DNA of 33,127 nt, taken from assembly GCA_017540175.1 (NCBI GenBank), contig JAFYBN010000112.1, positions 1 through 33,127 of the forward strand. Reading direction: 5' to 3'. The position numbers were made by a program, and so were the translations under genes. The notes below the pieces were generated by a model. The model searched no databases. It was given only the letters and a program-made list of their open reading frames with translations, and was not told where the DNA came from. The stretch comes from Clostridia bacterium (GTDB lineage Bacteria; Bacillota; Clostridia; Oscillospirales; CAG-272). Below are positions 25,557-32,879 of the stretch, one piece after another (position 1 is the stretch's first letter; every line of letters starts with the position of its first letter).

Positions 25557-26774
25557 TTACAGCGCAAACCCATCCGTGATCCCGACCAGCCGGGTGCTGT
25601 CACGCTTGACGTAGTACATCTCCGTGATCTCCGACGTGCTGTGTCCGAGCAGGTCGGCGACCTGTTTCGGCGAGAGGCAGAGGAGCGAACCGTCGGGCTG
25701 CTTGACGCCGTTGACCAACCGCGAAGCGAAGGTATGCCGGAAGCTGTGGAGCCCCTTCTGTTCGATCCCTGCGTTCTTCAGGATCTTGTAGTACCGCTTG
25801 CGGAAGTTGACGGGGCGGGTGTACTTCCCCTGCTGGTCGCATACGAGGGGCGTGTTCTCGCCGAAGTAGAATTCCTTCCGCAGATCCTTGATCGCTTCGA
25901 TAGCGGTGTCGTTGAGGGGAACGTCGCGCTTGCTCGTCGCGCTCTTGAGCTTCCCGACCTTGACCTCCCTTCCGCTGTCGATCTCCGCGCCTTCGCGGCG
26001 GTAGACTTCCTTCACGCCGCGCTGTACATGAAGCACACGGTTGTCCAGATCGACGTCGCTGTTGAGCAGACCGAGCAGTTCTCCCGAGCGCAGACCGGTG
26101 TTGAGCAGGAGTGTGAACGCGCTGGCCTGCATGTACTTCCGCACGCCGTTGCCGTACAGCGAGAAGGCTTCCGCCTTGAACTTGTCGAGCTCCTCATCCG
26201 TGAAGACCGTGACCGTCTCGCAGGTGGGGAGATTTTCCTTGTCCTGCGCCGCGAGGAAGTTCGCCTTCTTCATCATCGGCGCGGCGGTCATCGGACTGCG
26301 GGTGATGAGCTCCTGCTCCGTCAGGCTCTTGTAATACTCGTTCAGGAGGTTGTGAACCTTCTTCACGGTGCTGTATGCGTACCCTTCGTTCATCATCCGG
26401 TTCAGCAGACTCTTCACGTCGGCGGCGGTGACGTCCTCGACGATCTTGTCGCCGATGTACGGGTAGATCTGGTGGCGCGCAGTGCATTCGTACCGGTCGT
26501 AGGTCGTACGCTCGATGCTCGGCAGTTTGAAGACCTCGAGCCACCGCTGCATGCTTTCCTTCAGCGGACGCCGGATCTCGTCGGATTCGATCCGGTCGTC
26601 GTAGAAGTGTTCGGTGTACTCTTTCATCTTCTTCTCGACGTCCTTCTTACCCGTGCCGGAGAACGCGCGGCGCATACGTGTCCCGGCTTCGTCGAGATAC
26701 CACACCGTCCCGTGCCATCGTCCGTCGTTGCATTTGCTGGCCGTACCGTTTGTCAGCAGTTTTTTCTGTGCCAC
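25557..26774 (-). CDS. Tyrosine recombinase/integrase
   Basis: 405 aa, the size of Tn916-type integrases. An N-terminal arm-binding region (about 1-60; GRWHGTVWYLDEAG) is followed by a SAM-like core-binding domain (about 70-165) and the catalytic domain (about 190-400). The catalytic set is complete: R229 in NTGLRSGE, Lys in KLKSATSK (277 or 282), H343 and R346 in HSFRHTFA, H378 in LLGHST, and Tyr387/388 in EMYYVK. It catalyses excision and insertion of the element. The start is GTG at 26774 with GGAGGG about 9 nt upstream; that site overlaps the stop region of the preceding 33-codon gene, so translation is probably coupled. No separate excisionase is recognised. Confidence 0.95.
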   Translation of the reverse strand: MAQKKLLTNGTASKCNDGRWHGTVWYLDEAGTRMRRAFSGTGKKDVEKKMKEYTEHFYDDRIESDEIRRPLKESMQRWLEVFKLPSIERTTYDRYECTARHQIYPYIGDKIVEDVTAADVKSLLNRMMNEGYAYSTVKKVHNLLNEYYKSLTEQELITRSPMTAAPMMKKANFLAAQDKENLPTCETVTVFTDEELDKFKAEAFSLYGNGVRKYMQASAFTLLLNTGLRSGELLGLLNSDVDLDNRVLHVQRGVKEVYRREGAEIDSGREVKVGKLKSATSKRDVPLNDTAIEAIKDLRKEFYFGENTPLVCDQQGKYTRPVNFRKRYYKILKNAGIEQKGLHSFRHTFASRLVNGVKQPDGSLLCLSPKQVADLLGHSTSEITEMYYVKRDSTRLVGITDGFAL

Positions 26775-26901: not shown

Positions 26902-28602
26902 TCATGACAAGGTCGGACCGCTGTACTGTTCCTCGTCGTCGTCTTCGTCTTGATCGTTGTTCTGTTTGTCTTTCGGGTCGTAATCCGAATCGGAATCCGC
27001 CCCGCCATACTCCGTCTCACCGTAGTAGTACTCATATCCGTCTTCGCCGAGATCTTCCATGTCGGGAACTTCCTTCTTTGGTTTGTCGTCTTCTCCGTCA
27101 AAGAGATCGGACGCGTCGGTGACCTCTTCCCTGTCGTCGTACTCATATCCGTCCTCTCCGAGGTCCTCCATTTCCGAATCGTCACTGCTCCGACCGTCCG
27201 TACCGTCCTTGAAGAGATCGTCCGCGTCCTGACCCTCGCTCCCCTGCACATGCGAAACGGAATCCGCACGCGCTATACCGAACCGTTCCCGCGCCTCATC
27301 CAGTTCGTCAGCACGAGCGCGTTCGATCAGGTACGCGATCACCGCGAGCGGGATGCCGAGCGCCGCGCCGACGTTTTTCGCCTCCCGCTCCGCGTCGAGC
27401 TCGCGCTGTACCTCTTCGTGCGTCTTCCCTTTCAGCGAAGGACGAGGAAACAGACCAGCGAGAAGATCAACGTACCGAGGAAGATGGTCCATCCAAACAT
27501 CGCCGTCAGCCTCCGCGACGCGCTCTCGACCGACTTCGTGTTCTTCATCACGGCGAACCGCAGATCGTCCATCGTCAGCTCCACAGAGCTTTTCACGCGA
27601 AACTTCCCATCCGGTAACTGCTCCTCCCGCTGCTGATCCAGCAAAGATTTCAGCTCCGCGATCTCCTTCGAATGCTCCCGGAGCGTTTCCGTCAGCTCCG
27701 CGTTCATCGATTCCAACCGTCTGAGCACCTCGTCCTGCGACGTTGAACGCGGGATCGGCGTGTTCATCCGTGTCAGTTCGTCCATGCTCAATCTCCTCGA
27801 GGATCCGTTTTCGTATTGCGAATTCAACCTCCATGACCTCCTTCAGGTACTTCGTGTCGGACAGACTTCGGTCCCGACACCGTTTTTGTTTGCCGTCTCT
27901 GTGCGGTGGTTCGTTCAGACAGACGTATGTGATGTGTTTCCGGTCCGCGCGCCAAACCGTTTCGTAACCGAACTCACGCATCCGCACACGGAATTGATCC
28001 GGCGTCCACGACGTCTCCATGCTCATGGTGATCGCGCTGCGCAGACGGAACTTCCACGAGTCCGAACGGACGGCAGAGCGGTATTCGCCGTTCTTGACAT
28101 CCCGGACGTCCGGTTTCCGCGCGTACGGTTTCAGCACAGAGAGACCGTGTGCTGCACAGATCCCGTCGCTGAGCTGACGGAGTGTCTGCAGCGTTTTCGG
28201 CGTCTGCCGAAGCTTCAACCCCGTTTCGTGATTCACACTGTTGATAACAAAATGGTTGTGCAGGTGCTCCCGGTCGACGTGCGTCGCGACCAGCACCTCG
28301 TGACCGGGCCATGCGCGCGCCGCGAACTCGAGACCGATCTCGTTCACCTCCTGCGGCGTGACCGCTTCGTCCGGCGAGAACGACTGGACATAGTGATAGA
28401 AATACGTGCCGCCGCACTTTCCCCATGCCTGCTTCGTCGCCATGAACTGATCGAGCGCATACGCGGGAACGCAGTCCTCGCCCGAAGTACAGAACGCTTT
28501 TTCACCGATCTGCGTCTTGTGCGGCTGCAGACAGTAGTCGATCACACGTCCCAGCGCAGACCGCGAACTGTTCCCGCCGCTCTTGTATTTGATATACGTC
28601 AC
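26902..28602 (-). CDS. mobA: Relaxase, MobA/VirD2 (MOB-P) type
   Basis: 566 aa. The N-terminal relaxase domain (about 1-200) has the histidine motif ATHVDREHLHNHFVIN (H108, D110, H113, H115, H117) that positions the metal, and N-terminal Tyr candidates such as Y23. It nicks at oriT and stays bound to the 5' end. The middle (about 270-390) is low in predicted structure because another gene occupies the same DNA in a second frame. The C-terminus (from about 455) is very acidic and carries two copies of MEDLGEDGYEY. It starts at a GTG whose last two bases begin the mobC stop (GTGA), so it is coupled to MobC; the only AAGGAGG is 19 nt upstream. Confidence 0.9.
   Translation of the reverse strand: MTYIKYKSGGNSSRSALGRVIDYCLQPHKTQIGEKAFCTSGEDCVPAYALDQFMATKQAWGKCGGTYFYHYVQSFSPDEAVTPQEVNEIGLEFAARAWPGHEVLVATHVDREHLHNHFVINSVNHETGLKLRQTPKTLQTLRQLSDGICAAHGLSVLKPYARKPDVRDVKNGEYRSAVRSDSWKFRLRSAITMSMETSWTPDQFRVRMREFGYETVWRADRKHITYVCLNEPPHRDGKQKRCRDRSLSDTKYLKEVMEVEFAIRKRILEEIEHGRTDTDEHADPAFNVAGRGAQTVGIDERGADGNAPGAFEGDRGAEIFAGSAAGGAVTGWEVSREKLCGADDGRSAVRRDEEHEVGRERVAEADGDVWMDHLPRYVDLLAGLFPRPSLKGKTHEEVQRELDAEREAKNVGAALGIPLAVIAYLIERARADELDEARERFGIARADSVSHVQGSEGQDADDLFKDGTDGRSSDDSEMEDLGEDGYEYDDREEVTDASDLFDGEDDKPKKEVPDMEDLGEDGYEYYYGETEYGGADSDSDYDPKDKQNNDQDEDDDEEQYSGPTLS
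27432..27785 (-). CDS. Coiled-coil membrane-anchored protein nested in mobA (MobB/MbeB-like position)
   Basis: 117 aa, in a different frame, wholly inside mobA (relaxase residues about 272-390). The ATG at 27785 has GAGGAG 7 nt upstream, a strong site. The protein starts MDELTRMNTPIPRS, continues as a Glu/Leu-rich coiled coil (VLRRLESMNAELTETLREH; about 18-55), then a mixed segment, and ends in a single transmembrane helix (about 95-115; WTIFLGTLIFSLVCFLVL). This is a coherent membrane protein, not a shadow, whereas the relaxase frame here is Gly/Ala/Arg-rich. In ColE1-type plasmids mbeB and mbeD are likewise nested in mbeA and encode small coiled-coil or membrane proteins needed for mobilization. 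A similar role is inferred from position and architecture. Confidence 0.72.
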   Translation of the reverse strand: MDELTRMNTPIPRSTSQDEVLRRLESMNAELTETLREHSKEIAELKSLLDQQREEQLPDGKFRVKSSVELTMDDLRFAVMKNTKSVESASRRLTAMFGWTIFLGTLIFSLVCFLVLR

Positions 28603-28925
28603 CGTTGCGATGCCTTGCTCACCTCCTTTTGGATCGCGGCCAGTCCGGCGGCGACCGCGCCGAGCTGCTCGTTGATTTCGTTCAGACCGACGACATAGAT
28701 CTCGCCGCTGTTGGCCTTCCGCGTGAGCTGATTGACGTTGTTCCCGATCCGGCGCAGCTCCGCCAGCATCGGTTTGAGATCATCGAGGATGACGATGGGC
28801 TTGTCCATTCCGGCGCTGACAAGATACTCCGTCCGGCTCATCTTCGCGCGTTTTGCGTTTGCGTCGATCACGGAAAGCTCATGGTCGCTGAACCGGATCG
28901 GTACGACGTTGTTTCGTTTTCTCAT
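28599..28925 (-). CDS. mobC: Mobilization protein MobC
   Basis: 108 aa. The N-terminal ribbon-helix-helix (about 8-42; VVPIRFSDHELSVIDANAKR, MSRTEYLVSAG) should bind oriT. The C-terminal half has the MobC family segment LRRIGNNVNQLTRKAN (about 59-74) and a helical tail. It helps open the DNA strands at oriT for the relaxase and may repress the operon. I chose the ATG at 28925, with GGAGG 6 nt upstream; the longer frame reads into a non-coding structured region. Its stop overlaps the relaxase GTG. Confidence 0.88.
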   Translation of the reverse strand: MRKRNNVVPIRFSDHELSVIDANAKRAKMSRTEYLVSAGMDKPIVILDDLKPMLAELRRIGNNVNQLTRKANSGEIYVVGLNEINEQLGAVAAGLAAIQKEVSKASQR

Positions 28926-29139: not shown

Positions 29140-29550
29140 TCACGTCGCCTCCTTGCGCGGATGTTTGCGGTCGTACTCCTGCAGACGCCGCTCCGTGTTT
29201 GCGCGCGCGAGCTGATTTCGGAACCTTGCGTCGAGCACTTCGCCGAACGGAAGGATGCGGAAGCACAGGTTCCCGTTGCGCTTCTTTCCGTCCTTCGACG
29301 TGAAAAACGTCGGCTCGGTTCGGATCAGACCCTTCTGCTCAAGCAGGGAAACATACTTCCCGACGGTGTTTCTGCTCATGCCGCACGCCGAACCGATCGT
29401 GTCGTAGCTCGGGTAACATGTGTACGTTTTCCGATCCTCGCACCGGATCAGGAACGCGTAGACCAGAATTTCTCCGCCCGACAGTCCCAGGTCGAAGATC
29501 TCGTTCGGCAGGACGAACTGATTGCGCAGGCGTTTTTGTTTTTCGTTCAA
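29140..29550 (-). CDS. Winged helix-turn-helix protein, replication/plasmid-type
   Basis: 136 aa. Residues 14-90 form a winged HTH of the type found in replication initiator N-termini and in helix-turn-helix proteins of clostridial mobile elements (VLPNEIFDLGLSGGEILVY, then CYPSYDTIGSACGMSRNTVGK, then SLLEQKGLI). The C-terminus is basic (RRLQEYDRKHPRK). The start is TTG at 29550 with GGAGGTG 5 nt upstream; no nearby ATG or GTG fits. Upstream lies a duplicated iteron-like region, so it may bind those repeats as initiator or copy control factor. That function is inferred. Confidence 0.75.
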   Translation of the reverse strand: MNEKQKRLRNQFVLPNEIFDLGLSGGEILVYAFLIRCEDRKTYTCYPSYDTIGSACGMSRNTVGKYVSLLEQKGLIRTEPTFFTSKDGKKRNGNLCFRILPFGEVLDARFRNQLARANTERRLQEYDRKHPRKEAT

Positions 29551-29565
29551 TCGAACACCTCCGTT

Positions 29566-30090
29566 TTGTTTCCGCTTCGTGTGCGGATATCATGCTGAAA
29601 ATTTTCTTGCACCCCTTCCGAAAATATCGCGAGATCGCGTGCATCCCAATAACGACAACGCTTTCCGCGATTTTTTAGCGAGTCCGAAGCGTCACGCTTC
29701 GCGTCACAACTGCGCATGACGATTCTGTTGCCGCGCGTTTCGTGACATGACGACGCCTTTTTCAATAAGATCCTTCGGTTTTTTCACTTTCTCTGATTCT
29801 GTTTTCCGCATCGAGCGGATGTCATGCTGAAATATTTCTCGCACCCCATCCGAGAATTTCGCGAGATTGCGTGCATCTCAATAACGACAACGCTTTCCGC
29901 GATTTTTTCGCGAGTCCGATGCGTCACGTTTCGCGTCACAGCTTCGCCTGACAATTCTGCCGTCACGCATTTCGTGACGCAATCCGCACGCCATTTTTTG
30001 AAAACGCGAGTCCGCGCAAACCCAATCGTGACAACGGTTTCCGGGATACTGTGACGCGATGACGCCTTTTTTCAACAAGACCCCTCGAGA
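29566..30090. repeat. 232-bp direct duplication, 2.3 copies, with iteron-like GCGTCAC motifs
   Basis: Copy A starts near 29566 and copy B near 29798 (for example gcggatatcatgctgaa at 29583 and gcggatgtcatgctgaa at 29815). A partial third copy ends at 30090 in the 3' end of the helicase gene. Each copy carries GCGTCAC/GTGACGC-type heptads, often as inverted pairs (GTCACG-N5-CGTGAC at 29962-29978), and CGCGA-N5-TCGCG hairpins. At least eight GTCAC/GTGAC occurrences lie within about 370 nt. The end of each copy resembles the ribosome binding region of the HTH gene, so the unit is a duplicated leader. It may act as an origin of replication. Confidence 0.65.
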
Positions 30091-32003
30091 ATTTTCCGCA
30101 CTTCGTCTTTTCTGATTTTGCAAACGCGGACGCTTCTCGTTCCGATGTGGATGCTCTCGGTGTTTGCGGTACCTCTCGCATCGAGCAGACCTTCCTCCCG
30201 CATCTGTTTTGACAGCGCCTTTGACGACAGCGTGAACGACTGATTCGAGTTCTCGCAGAACCGTTTGACCTCCCCGACGCACCTGTCGAGCAAAAGGAAA
30301 TAGTAGTCATCGTCTTCGTATCCGACGAGATTGTTCTCCGGACGCGGATCGTTTTTGTCCGTGACCGTCACCATTCCGCACTCGATCATCGCGAACAGAT
30401 TCCGCAGAAAGATATGCGTGGGCTTGTCCGCGACGACCGCGGCTGACTGTTTGCGCGCGTGATCCAGAAGGATTTTGTCAAACTCCGCGAGCATCTCCCG
30501 ACGCTGTTCATCAGACAAAGCGTTTTTCTCTTTGAGGAGCATGGTCAGCATCTGGTATCCCGTCTCGAGACAGCTCAGCGTATCCGGCAACCGGTCGTGG
30601 AACGTGATCCCGGCGGACGTCAGCTTCGCACGCCATTCGTGACGCAGTTCGGAGAATTTCTGACGGAGCCATTCGACGAACGCGTCTTCCTTCTCTTCCG
30701 TCAACAGAAACTTCCCGCGCAGCCATACGAGGTACGCGTACATGCACCGCTGCAGCAGACCGTCCCGCGCCTTGTCCTGGATCTCCTGCAGGACGCCGAG
30801 GTCGATGCCGTCCTGCTTCAGTTCGACGATGAACAGGCGCGCGAGACTGCTCTCTCCGATGTCCGGAACGAACTCCGCCGTCATGATCACGTTCCCCTGC
30901 GGCGGTCTGGTCCTGCGCAGTGTAATGTCGGACGTCAGACGGTTCCTCTGCGCACGGTCGCCATAGCCTCTCACGAGCTTCTCCGCGATCGTGTTCATGT
31001 TCGTCACGTCCTGCTTCGTGGACGGATGCGAATCGTCGACGCAGGTCAGCACGTCGTCGAGATGACTGGCGGCAAGCAGGATGCTGTTCGGCGTGTCCGC
31101 GAACGACATGGGCAGATCCGATTCGGAGAAGACTCCGAAGAACGACAGCGCGAGCGCAGAGAGCGTACTCTTCTTCGCGCCCGTCCGACCGATCAGCGTG
31201 AAAACAAACTTCGGCTCGTGTCCTGCTTTGCGCAGGAAGCTGTTCAGCGGAGAAAGAAAGACCAGCGCGAAAAGCGGATGCAGAACGTCCGGCGGCACGA
31301 TTTCGAGCTGCATCATCGCCGTGAGGATTCCGAGATCGGACGGATCTTCTTCGCACACCATTCCGTAGTTCGCGCACTTCCCGCTCAGCTCCACTTCGCA
31401 GAACGTGCTGCCCGGGAGAAGGAAATGCAGTTCGCCGTTCTGTCTCACCCATCCGGTGTGCGCGTAGATCGAACGCTGATCCGCATGTGCGGACGATCCT
31501 TTCATGGCGTTGACGATGTGCTTCTCCACCGAGCCCGTCACATCCAGTCGGCACCGCGCCGGGAGCTTCTCGCTCACCCAGTCCATCTTGCCGAACGAGG
31601 AGGCCGGGACGCGGAACGCCGGAAGCAGTTCTCCGTTCTCGTCGATAACCTCGACCTCGTATTCCCGTGTGACCTCTTCCCCGTCGTCGTACAGGATCTC
31701 GCAGGCGATCCGCGGGACGAAATTGCAGAGCCGAACCGTTGTTTCGCCTCCCTTGACTTCTTTTCTGTACCCGAGGCAGTTGTCCTTGACAGTGTACGGC
31801 GAGGCGAAGAGCTTCGTCGTCTCCGGGTCCGGCTCGTCCTCTTTCTCCGCTTCAACGTACGCCTCTTCGATTTCCTCCGGCGCGTACACCCGGTTCAGCG
31901 ACGCGATGAGTTCCGCGTCGGTCATGTTTTCCGCCGACGTTTCCGTTTTGATTTCCTCCTTCGTTTCCGTTTCGATTGCCTGCCCGATTTTGTTTTCCGT
32001 CAT
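30072..32003 (-). CDS. DUF927-like P-loop helicase/replication protein
   Basis: 643 aa. An acidic N-terminus (1-65) is followed by a domain of about 200 residues. The ATPase core has a variant Walker A, FTLIGRTGAKKST (G272-T280; Lys replaces the Gly before the catalytic Lys, as in other mobile-element DUF927-type proteins), and a Walker B-like VLTCVDDSHP (about 310-320). The C-terminal part is helical. Such proteins are thought to be replicative helicase/primase-type factors of integrative elements. I chose the ATG at 32003, with AAAGGAG 5 nt upstream; its ATG overlaps the stop of a 22-codon ORF. The stop lies at the edge of the iteron-like repeats. Confidence 0.7.
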   Translation of the reverse strand: MTENKIGQAIETETKEEIKTETSAENMTDAELIASLNRVYAPEEIEEAYVEAEKEDEPDPETTKLFASPYTVKDNCLGYRKEVKGGETTVRLCNFVPRIACEILYDDGEEVTREYEVEVIDENGELLPAFRVPASSFGKMDWVSEKLPARCRLDVTGSVEKHIVNAMKGSSAHADQRSIYAHTGWVRQNGELHFLLPGSTFCEVELSGKCANYGMVCEEDPSDLGILTAMMQLEIVPPDVLHPLFALVFLSPLNSFLRKAGHEPKFVFTLIGRTGAKKSTLSALALSFFGVFSESDLPMSFADTPNSILLAASHLDDVLTCVDDSHPSTKQDVTNMNTIAEKLVRGYGDRAQRNRLTSDITLRRTRPPQGNVIMTAEFVPDIGESSLARLFIVELKQDGIDLGVLQEIQDKARDGLLQRCMYAYLVWLRGKFLLTEEKEDAFVEWLRQKFSELRHEWRAKLTSAGITFHDRLPDTLSCLETGYQMLTMLLKEKNALSDEQRREMLAEFDKILLDHARKQSAAVVADKPTHIFLRNLFAMIECGMVTVTDKNDPRPENNLVGYEDDDYYFLLLDRCVGEVKRFCENSNQSFTLSSKALSKQMREEGLLDARGTANTESIHIGTRSVRVCKIRKDEVRKILEGSC

Positions 32004-32068
32004 CGACGCTCCTTTCCGACCTTGCGGTCTTGTTTTGATTCGTGTGTTTTCTCTGCGACCATCGTCAT
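32000..32068 (-). CDS. 22-aa leader peptide coupled to the helicase gene
   Basis: The ATG at 32068 has GGAGGG 6 nt upstream and opens a 22-codon frame (MTMVAEKTHESKQDRK...ERR) whose TGA overlaps the helicase ATG (ATGA). The helicase ribosome binding site lies within its last codons. It is very basic and polar and no family is recognised. It probably serves translational coupling. It could be a short DNA-binding peptide, but nothing shows this. Confidence 0.45.
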   Translation of the reverse strand: MTMVAEKTHESKQDRKVGKERR

Positions 32069-32336
32069 CACCTTCCCTCCTGCCGCAGGGGTTGATCTGT
32101 ATTTTGGATTTTGCTAAACTGATTTGACGGGGATCGTCATTTCCCGACACCGAAAAGAAAAACTGCTCGGCACGAAATTGTGGGAGCAGTATCTGTATTG
32201 CGAGTTGGACGTATCACGGGAAAACAAAAAGACGCCTCCGCTGTCCATGAAGACATCTTGTCGATTCGATTCCAAAACCGAATACCCGTGTTACACTTGA
32301 TTCTGCGTGAAGGTGCACTTCCGCCTTGGCGATGAT
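32069..32336. other. Spacer upstream of helicase operon
   Basis: About 270 nt between the leader ORF and the tandem repeat array. No open frame here has a ribosome binding site and no convincing promoter is seen. Transcription of the helicase unit probably starts here or inside the array. Confidence 0.4.
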
Positions 32337-32765
32337 CCGTTTTGACAGACTTATCCCTTGGCATGATCGCATTTGAACGCAACTCACCCTGGCGAAGTCC
32401 GTTTTCGAAAAAAACAGTTCCGTCGGAACCTCTCTTCCGTTTTCTGCGGAAGGACAGACTTCCCCCTTGGTGTGATCGTATTTGAACGCAACTCACCCTT
32501 GGCGAAGTCCGTTTTTGAAAAAACAGTTCTGTCAGAACCTCTCTCCCGTTTTCGCGGAAGGATAGACTTCCCCCTTGGCATGATCGCATTTGAACGCAAC
32601 TCTCCCTTGGCGAAGTCCGTTTTCGAAAAACAGTTCCGTCAGATGACCTGCTCTTCCGTTTTCTGCGGAAAGATAGACTTCCCCCTTGGCGTGATCGTGT
32701 TTGGACGCAATCCACCCTTGGCGAAGTCCGTTTCTGAAAAAACTGTCCCTTGGTGAAGTGACCTT
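32337..32765. repeat. Tandem array of about 109-bp non-coding repeats, about 4 copies
   Basis: The marker ATTTGAACGC (or GTTTGGACGC) recurs at 32371, 32480, 32588 and 32699, giving periods of 109, 108 and 111 bp. These are not all multiples of three, so no protein repeat is maintained. Each unit holds two CCCTTGG heptads, a GAAGTCCGTTTTYGAAAA segment with a TTTTCGAAAA palindrome, and a hairpin such as CTTCCG-N7-CGGAAG. It lies between the helicase operon and a hairpin-rich end segment. Confidence 0.8.
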
Positions 32766-32879
32766 TTGAAAAAACTCTCTTCTCGCTCAGCTGTGTTTGT
32801 AGAGCGAACTTGTATGTTTGTATGTTGCATGCACGGTTTTTCCTGACCGTCAGGTCGGATTTGATACTCATCTTCCCCG

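Follow-up and report, generated by a model that had tools for sequence, protein, structure and literature searches.

The question raised by this locus is whether a relaxase gene, mobA, of a Clostridia bacterium contains a second complete gene in another reading frame. The window analysed here, 33,127 nucleotides, makes up an entire contig; the draft genome has 125 contigs and 3.9 Mb in all. A sequence-only reading had reported a 117-codon frame lying wholly within mobA, with the ribosome binding site GAGGAG 7 nt before its ATG at 27785. Both are present: positions 27432-27785 on the minus strand are open, in the +1 frame relative to the 566-codon open reading frame (ORF) at 26902-28602, and GAGGAG is found at that distance. 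Homology, on the other hand, places the start of the gene farther upstream, at TTG 27827, giving 131 codons. We read 27432-27827 as a protein-coding gene of the MobB kind, encoding a tail-anchored relaxosome accessory protein engulfed by mobA, with a probability of about three in four; its function we infer. The features concerned are the following.

26902..28602, minus strand: mobA, relaxase, 566 codons, GTG start (Pfam Relaxase PF03432, E 1.9e-35)
28141..28536, minus strand: Pfam relaxase domain inside mobA
27432..27827, minus strand: mobB-like nested gene read in the +1 frame of mobA from a TTG start, 131 codons and a stop; its product has an N-terminal motif, a charged part that looks helical and, at the C terminus, a membrane segment
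27837..27843, minus strand: Shine-Dalgarno sequence AAGGAGG, 9 nt 5' of TTG 27827, within the mobA motif KYLKEVMEVEF
27438..27494, minus strand: residues 112-130 of the nested protein, its membrane segment; mean Kyte-Doolittle hydropathy 2.28 across 19 residues
27432..27785, minus strand: shorter form from ATG 27785, 117 codons; a possible secondary start, unconserved as a start
26902..27431, minus strand: mobA C-terminal tail beyond the nested stop, 530 nt, with a HEEVQRELDAEREAKNVGAALG-type segment and an acidic tail

Searches with the nested protein gave few matches, and relatives were gathered via the relaxase. The set consists of 70 relaxases of the MOBP type with distinct catalytic domains, scoring at least 313 bits against the clade profile, most of them from draft assemblies. 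A relaxase gene was counted as a carrier when it held an intact +1-frame ORF containing a 19-residue segment with a mean hydropathy of at least 1.5. Such an ORF, 117–191 residues long with a C-terminal membrane segment, is present at the same place in 59 of the 70. The start is fixed to a point in mobA: in 56 of the 59 carriers the first codon of the ORF overlaps the x-E of the mobA motif KYLKExMExEF, and it lies 2–3 codons later in the remaining three (L093, L014 and L168). The start codon is ATG in 46 carriers, TTG in 9 and GTG in 4. An N-terminal motif, approximately MNSxSxxxLSMDELKxxN, begins at the position of TTG 27827, where a relative that is 79% identical (G024) has an ATG.

A Shine-Dalgarno match of 5–7 nt precedes the start in 57 of the 59 carriers. 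Beneath the ribosome site, mobA encodes Lys-Glu in 47 carriers; 45 of them do so with AAG GAG, compared with 13.1 predicted from how these genes use codons. Outside the clade, none of 13 Lys-Glu relaxases that lack a nested gene uses AAG GAG. The predicted ribosome site is conserved inside a mobA motif and has been retained against codon usage. The ATG at 27785 was rejected as the primary start, its start and site being unconserved among carriers: the GAGGAG of the window reads GCGGAG in G024, and an internal ATG at codons 9–25 with a comparable ribosome site occurs in only two of the 59 carriers, the window being one of these. It is kept only as a possible secondary start.

Selection on the two frames was compared in 26 pairs of relaxase genes sharing no sequence, using nucleotide alignments that favour neither frame. 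The sequence-only reading had named reduced synonymous variation of the relaxase as a check, and such a reduction is what the pairs show: fourfold sites of mobA differ at 703 of 1836 positions upstream (0.38), at 125 of 1090 in the overlap (0.11) and at 108 of 286 downstream (0.38). The divergence at mobA codon positions 1, 2 and 3 is 0.146, 0.111 and 0.374 upstream, 0.331, 0.276 and 0.242 in the overlap, and 0.241, 0.213 and 0.436 downstream. Within the overlap, mobA position 1, which is the wobble position of the nested frame, diverges more than position 3 in 21 of the 26 pairs (sign test p 0.0025); upstream, position 3 exceeds position 1 in all 26. Position 3 is less divergent in the overlap than upstream in 23 pairs. 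For the window and G024 the corresponding values are 0.19, 0.14 and 0.09 in the overlap versus 0.12, 0.09 and 0.31 upstream. The relaxase frame had also been called compositionally odd over the nested gene, and this is borne out by the means of the 59 carriers, hydrophobic residues making up 20% of the mobA overlap versus 34% of the nested frame. The constrained fourfold sites, the +1 rhythm and the AAG GAG bias together indicate that the nested frame dominates selection in the overlap, where mobA is, by its predicted composition, a polar linker.

Two explanations without a second protein bear on these data. A DNA or RNA signal in the overlap could likewise produce the fourfold constraint on its own, but it does not account for a +1 codon rhythm in 21 of 26 pairs, for an open frame of 117–191 codons, or for a start and ribosome site that are conserved while sequence and length vary widely; we regard it as very improbable. 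The other is that the relaxase linker leaves the +1 frame open by chance, and that the hydrophobic run is a by-product of mobA composition. Synonymous mobA codons were permuted in 28 relaxases with 2000 draws each, after removal of three duplicates (L003, L005 and L018), one unrelated sequence (L052) and one broken one (L007). The 131-codon frame of the window stays open in 42% of its permutations, so that its openness on its own is weak evidence; the decisive evidence is comparative. A frame that is open and also has a membrane segment as hydrophobic as that observed never arises in the 2000 draws made from the window; for each of the 28 relaxases it arises in 5% of draws or fewer, and for 18 of them never. 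For 14 of the 28, openness alone is reached in only 0.05–3.2% of permutations. Although the window by itself could not have settled the matter, chance is refuted at the level of the clade by the conservation and selection results (the fourfold constraint, a start and ribosome site retained against codon usage, and a membrane segment in 59 of 70 relaxases), and little credence is left for it. The claim that a functional gene is nested in mobA is strongly supported by the conserved ORF, the conserved start and site, and the fourfold constraint.

The nested proteins have little sequence in common (mean column identity of 29% in an alignment of 15 members), yet many open with MNSxS or a variant, followed by an ELKxxN-like stretch. 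Their soluble part contains 28% charged residues on average. The C-terminal transmembrane helix of the sequence-only reading is found by hydropathy in the window protein and, by the definition of a carrier, in all 59 carriers; at a stricter cut-off of 1.6, exactly one segment is found in 55, two in 2 and none in 2. The segment begins 18–37 residues before the C terminus, and in 44 of the 59 its preceding flank is more positive than the short following one (median 6 residues). Inspection by eye and weak matches to helical families are the basis for the coiled coil. This architecture fits a tail-anchored protein whose helical part would be cytoplasmic.

Homology searches add little to this picture. 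The window protein (P0001) has no Pfam or NCBIfam match above cut-off, no tblastn match at E 0.1 among plasmid records (72,556) or phage records (50,697), and a match in 2 of 147 related genomes, including its own. Among 15 nested proteins the best-shared family is Apolipoprotein (4 of 15), a coiled-helix signal; DUF334 is not among their family matches, and there is no MbeB family in the Pfam and NCBIfam matches. The PDB profile matches (best E 5e-06, to a three-helix bundle, followed by apolipoprotein and designed helical proteins) were taken to reflect coiled-helix composition.

The window relaxase matches 1546 plasmid records, all below 60% identity, with the largest groups in Enterococcus (721), Lactococcus (321) and Staphylococcus (206). 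Fifteen plasmid loci from Bacillota and Fusobacterium were fetched (L101-L105 and L185-L194). The closest known systems are the mobB genes of Bacillota mobC-mobA plasmids (pRJ6, pSE50D-3, pML7046-1 with DUF334, pML7057-1, pRIVM6519-1 and one plasmid each of E. faecium, Priestia and Carnobacterium), and also those of Waltera p19YCFAH0.3Co2-2 and C. difficile pCD-METRO. Their relaxases are akin to that of the window, or to that of a human faecal contig (L106), at about 28–39% identity. As in the window, mobC precedes mobA where it is listed, and mobB starts in the +1 frame at the corresponding mobA motif. A +1 ORF that runs from this motif beyond the mobA stop is present in 11 of the 15 (L101-L105, L185, L187, L189, L190, L193 and L194, that of L193 being cut by the record end) and missing from four (L186, L188, L191 and L192). 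Like the nested protein, plasmid MobB has a charged helical part, with one or more membrane segments in the C-terminal half. The two arrangements differ in their ends: plasmid mobB ends 127–679 nt beyond the mobA stop, whereas the nested gene of the window ends 530 nt before the end of mobA.

The start at the motif is listed in none of ten judgeable plasmid records; in seven the entry is a shorter 3' piece, and three have no entry there, the gene table being incomplete. For the three pairs formed by three staphylococcal plasmids, fourfold sites differ at 1/25, 1/35 and 3/25 positions in the overlap counted from the conserved start, versus 40/79, 31/80 and 42/80 upstream. Because differences in the overlap are so few, the long form of staphylococcal mobB is probably real, which would make the gene 68–138 codons longer than annotated. 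A more distant pair (L103 and L105), with 4/12 versus 42/79 and the three codon positions equally divergent, neither supports nor excludes the long form. The staphylococcal genes, each starting inside the relaxase gene, are predicted at the following positions.

L101, 3216-3998: plasmid mobB
L102, 3192-3998: plasmid mobB
L194, 3132-3938: plasmid mobB

Nesting in a relaxase gene had first been likened to ColE1, and the parallel proves closer than was supposed, with the same frame and a similar place. On ColE1 (NC_001371), mbeB lies within mbeA in the +1 frame with AAAGGAG upstream; MbeA is a MOBP relaxase, a MobC-family protein is encoded upstream, and MbeB has a helical part and a membrane segment. 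mbeB begins close to where the relaxase domain ends; a MAFFT alignment, weak in this part, puts its start about 16 residues away from the point used in the clade. MbeA is matched by the clade profile at profile positions 92–125 only, and the ColE1 and window-type relaxases are barely alignable (BLASTP E 0.012). MbeB differs in having about 65 residues after its membrane segment, and ColE1 carries a second nested gene, mbeD. The likeness reflects either an ancient plan held in common or convergence on a convenient site, where the catalytic domain ends. We observed that the plasmid gene table for ColE1 (L198, 2120-3730) has mbeB and mbeD but not the enclosing relaxase gene mbeA.

A further likeness, drawn from description, is to RSF1010 and R1162. 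According to PMC4655240 and PMC2200642, RSF1010 mobB sits in mobA/repB in another frame, and the R1162-type MobB has a C-terminal membrane domain, interacts with MobA through its N-terminal part and raises transfer, being needed for its efficiency; for MobB, PMC4655240 cites Meyer 2011. The RSF1010/R1162 relaxase is listed as MOBQ in a table of PMC12857230, whereas the partner of the nested gene is a PF03432 relaxase of the MOBP type. Overlap of mob genes in a ColE1-type context is also remarked on in PMC6118388, and a partial overlap of the pKKS49 mob genes in PMC6157413.

Several observations weigh against the reading of the nested gene as a MobB-like accessory. Position, frame and architecture are what tie it to known MobB proteins. 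The most that any Pfam, NCBIfam or PHROG family matches is 4 of 15 nested proteins; the profile comparison of the nested family with plasmid MobB (hhalign) gives 71.5% over 53 coil columns, and that with ColE1 MbeB a probability of 3.3%, the latter two being dissimilar. The +1 rhythm is absent from the overlap in 5 of the 26 pairs; replaced nested bodies and catalytic identities below 62% are found among the exceptions. An intact nested gene is also lacking in 11 of the 70 relaxases, whose loci were read in three frames. The sequence-only reading had held that nested frames broken by stops beside an intact mobA would refute the gene. This occurs in a minority, 3 of the 70 (L007, L121 and L134, each with a single stop in the nested frame, L007 also lacking a start at the aligned point), against 59 intact cases, and the non-carriers are scattered inside the carrier clade. 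In five others (L038, L094, L171, L107 and L163) the overlap region is deleted or replaced; L133 has an early mobA stop with the nested frame open, L166 is frame-shifted, and L132 runs off its contig. Two truncated relaxase frames below 313 bits, L009 and L173, lie outside the 70; in L009 one shift breaks both frames. Either the nested gene is lost or dispensable in some relatives, or the broken cases are errors of draft assembly.

In a tree of 161 catalytic domains, built by a quick method and with long branches, the nested state falls in one clade of 71 rows with a support of 80 in the Shimodaira-Hasegawa-like approximate likelihood ratio test (SH-aLRT), comprising 59 nested, 11 without the gene and one overrunning. 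Rows below 150 bits other than named plasmids, contig-truncated rows and L192 were excluded. Overrunning forms of mobB are also found in two other lineages, of 9 and 3 rows, and G122 (L028) has the overrunning form, as in plasmids. Given the rooting and the long branches, the tree is compatible with either order of events, mobA having extended over mobB or mobB into mobA. Three short human faecal contigs filed as bacteriophage (L106-L108) carry this relaxase, and L106 and L108 the nested gene as well; by eye, they also encode recombinases and resemble mobilizable elements.

By analogy, membrane anchoring of the relaxosome is the most plausible role of the nested protein. Sequence comparison indicates that translation can start at a Shine-Dalgarno sequence formed by mobA codons where the catalytic domain ends, and the bases of the overlap are read in mobA as a polar linker that would join this domain to the C-terminal tail. 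The product would be inserted as a tail anchor, with the helical part in the cytoplasm and the short C terminus outside. It may bind the relaxase or relaxosome, hold it at the membrane, and present it to the coupling protein of a helper conjugation system. The model for this function is the MobB of R1162/RSF1010, which acts in this way, as ColE1 MbeB presumably does. According to the title of a 2007 article by Parker and Meyer, the signals of the R1162 relaxase reportedly require MobB.

Exchange of sequence between relatives gives a further view of the association with the relaxase. The catalytic domains of L138 and L141, and those of L097 and L164, are 92–93% identical, yet the distances between their nested bodies (after the first 22 residues) are 0.88 and 0.94, and those between their mobA tails 0.96 and 0.99. 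L138 has its nearest neighbour in L164 (0.53), and the distance between L141 and L097 is also small (0.51), with catalytic domains that are only 62% identical in each pairing, so the same two types recur on both backbones. In 60-base steps, the nucleotide identity of L138 and L141 is mostly 75–97% up to the first 60 bases of the nested gene, then 2–65% to beyond the mobA stop (+716), and again 67–83% from +840; for L097 and L164 it does not recover within the DNA compared. With the catalytic domain almost unchanged and both the nested body and the mobA tail replaced, these pairs have the look of cassette exchange. Across the set, nested and tail distances remain correlated once catalytic distance is allowed for (partial r 0.50); none of 2000 permutations, in which tree structure is otherwise ignored, gave as much. 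An earlier classing of mobA tail types by regular expressions was crude, leaving 8 of 59 unclassified and misfiling L138, and was replaced by distances. We put forward only tentatively, as a doubtful but possible interpretation, that the nested mobB body and the following mobA tail form one exchangeable cassette, with nesting acting as a lock. The cassette would adapt the relaxosome to a given helper secretion system, and mobC and the catalytic domain, with origin recognition, would stay.

The same comparisons bear on whether the nested frame, although translated and selected, might encode something other than a relaxosome anchor, for example an entry-exclusion, toxin-like or regulatory membrane peptide co-expressed with mobA. 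The link between the nested protein and the relaxase is one that we infer, the nested body can change while the tail stays similar (L034/L035 versus L036/L037, and L117 versus L015), and ColE1 MbeD, also encoded inside mbeA, is annotated as a mobilization/exclusion protein. A free-standing protein would allow the nested body to change in this way. Against such a product stand the correlated nested and tail distances and the place of the gene at the end of the catalytic domain, which corresponds in the mobC-mobA plasmids and is similar in ColE1; we consider it unlikely.

Nested or overlapping mobB genes are already known from ColE1, RSF1010 and, as a partial overlap, pKKS49. In the open-access literature searched we found no description of a nested gene in this Clostridia relaxase group. 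What is new is the fully nested family and its dominance of selection in the overlap, together with the conservation of the ribosome site within a mobA motif, plasmid mobB starts that are probably mis-annotated, and nested bodies that change along with the mobA tail. This paired change makes the determinant of helper compatibility approachable by comparison. The locus offers a long-kept, fully overlapping gene pair in Gram-positive mobile elements for which the statistical evidence is unusually clear. It suggests that MOBP modules from ColE1 to gut Clostridia may share a general plan in which mobB begins within mobA, where the catalytic domain ends. Because annotation omits or shortens mobB in the ten judgeable plasmid records, a factor that assists the mobilization of plasmids and elements may be going unnoticed on a wide scale.

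The genes adjoining mobA in the window are as follows.

28599..28922, minus strand: mobC, matching Pfam NikA-like and MobC; the ATG start was chosen by us within a longer ORF
25557..26774, minus strand: tyrosine recombinase (Phage_integrase)
29140..29550, minus strand: helix-turn-helix protein (HTH_36)

The locus is read as the mobC-mobA mobilization module of an integrative element because its neighbours are a MobC/NikA-like protein, a tyrosine recombinase and an HTH_36 protein; mobC overlaps the mobA start by 4 nt. The relaxase matches PF03432 above cut-off and the NCBIfam models SAG1250, TraI_MobP and MobP1 below theirs. Its residues Y23, H108, D110, H115 and H117 are invariant across 20 aligned relaxases, including that of the window, and we take them to be the catalytic signature of HUH relaxases. 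The coupling-protein families PF02534 and PF12696, the only such families searched, have no match in the host draft genome (93.5% complete), as expected of a mobilizable element that needs a helper.

The long acidic tail of the window mobA (26902-27431) contains MEDLGEDGYEY twice. The ORF at 32137-32871 consists, by eye, of repeated RTSPR..CVQ..S.QGGSLSFRRKRK-like units and is perhaps a DNA repeat region, not a gene. The 692-codon ORF at 30072-32150 has no Pfam match at E 0.001 and shows, by eye, a P-loop-like GRTGAKKST stretch; its product is perhaps a replication or helicase-like protein of the element.
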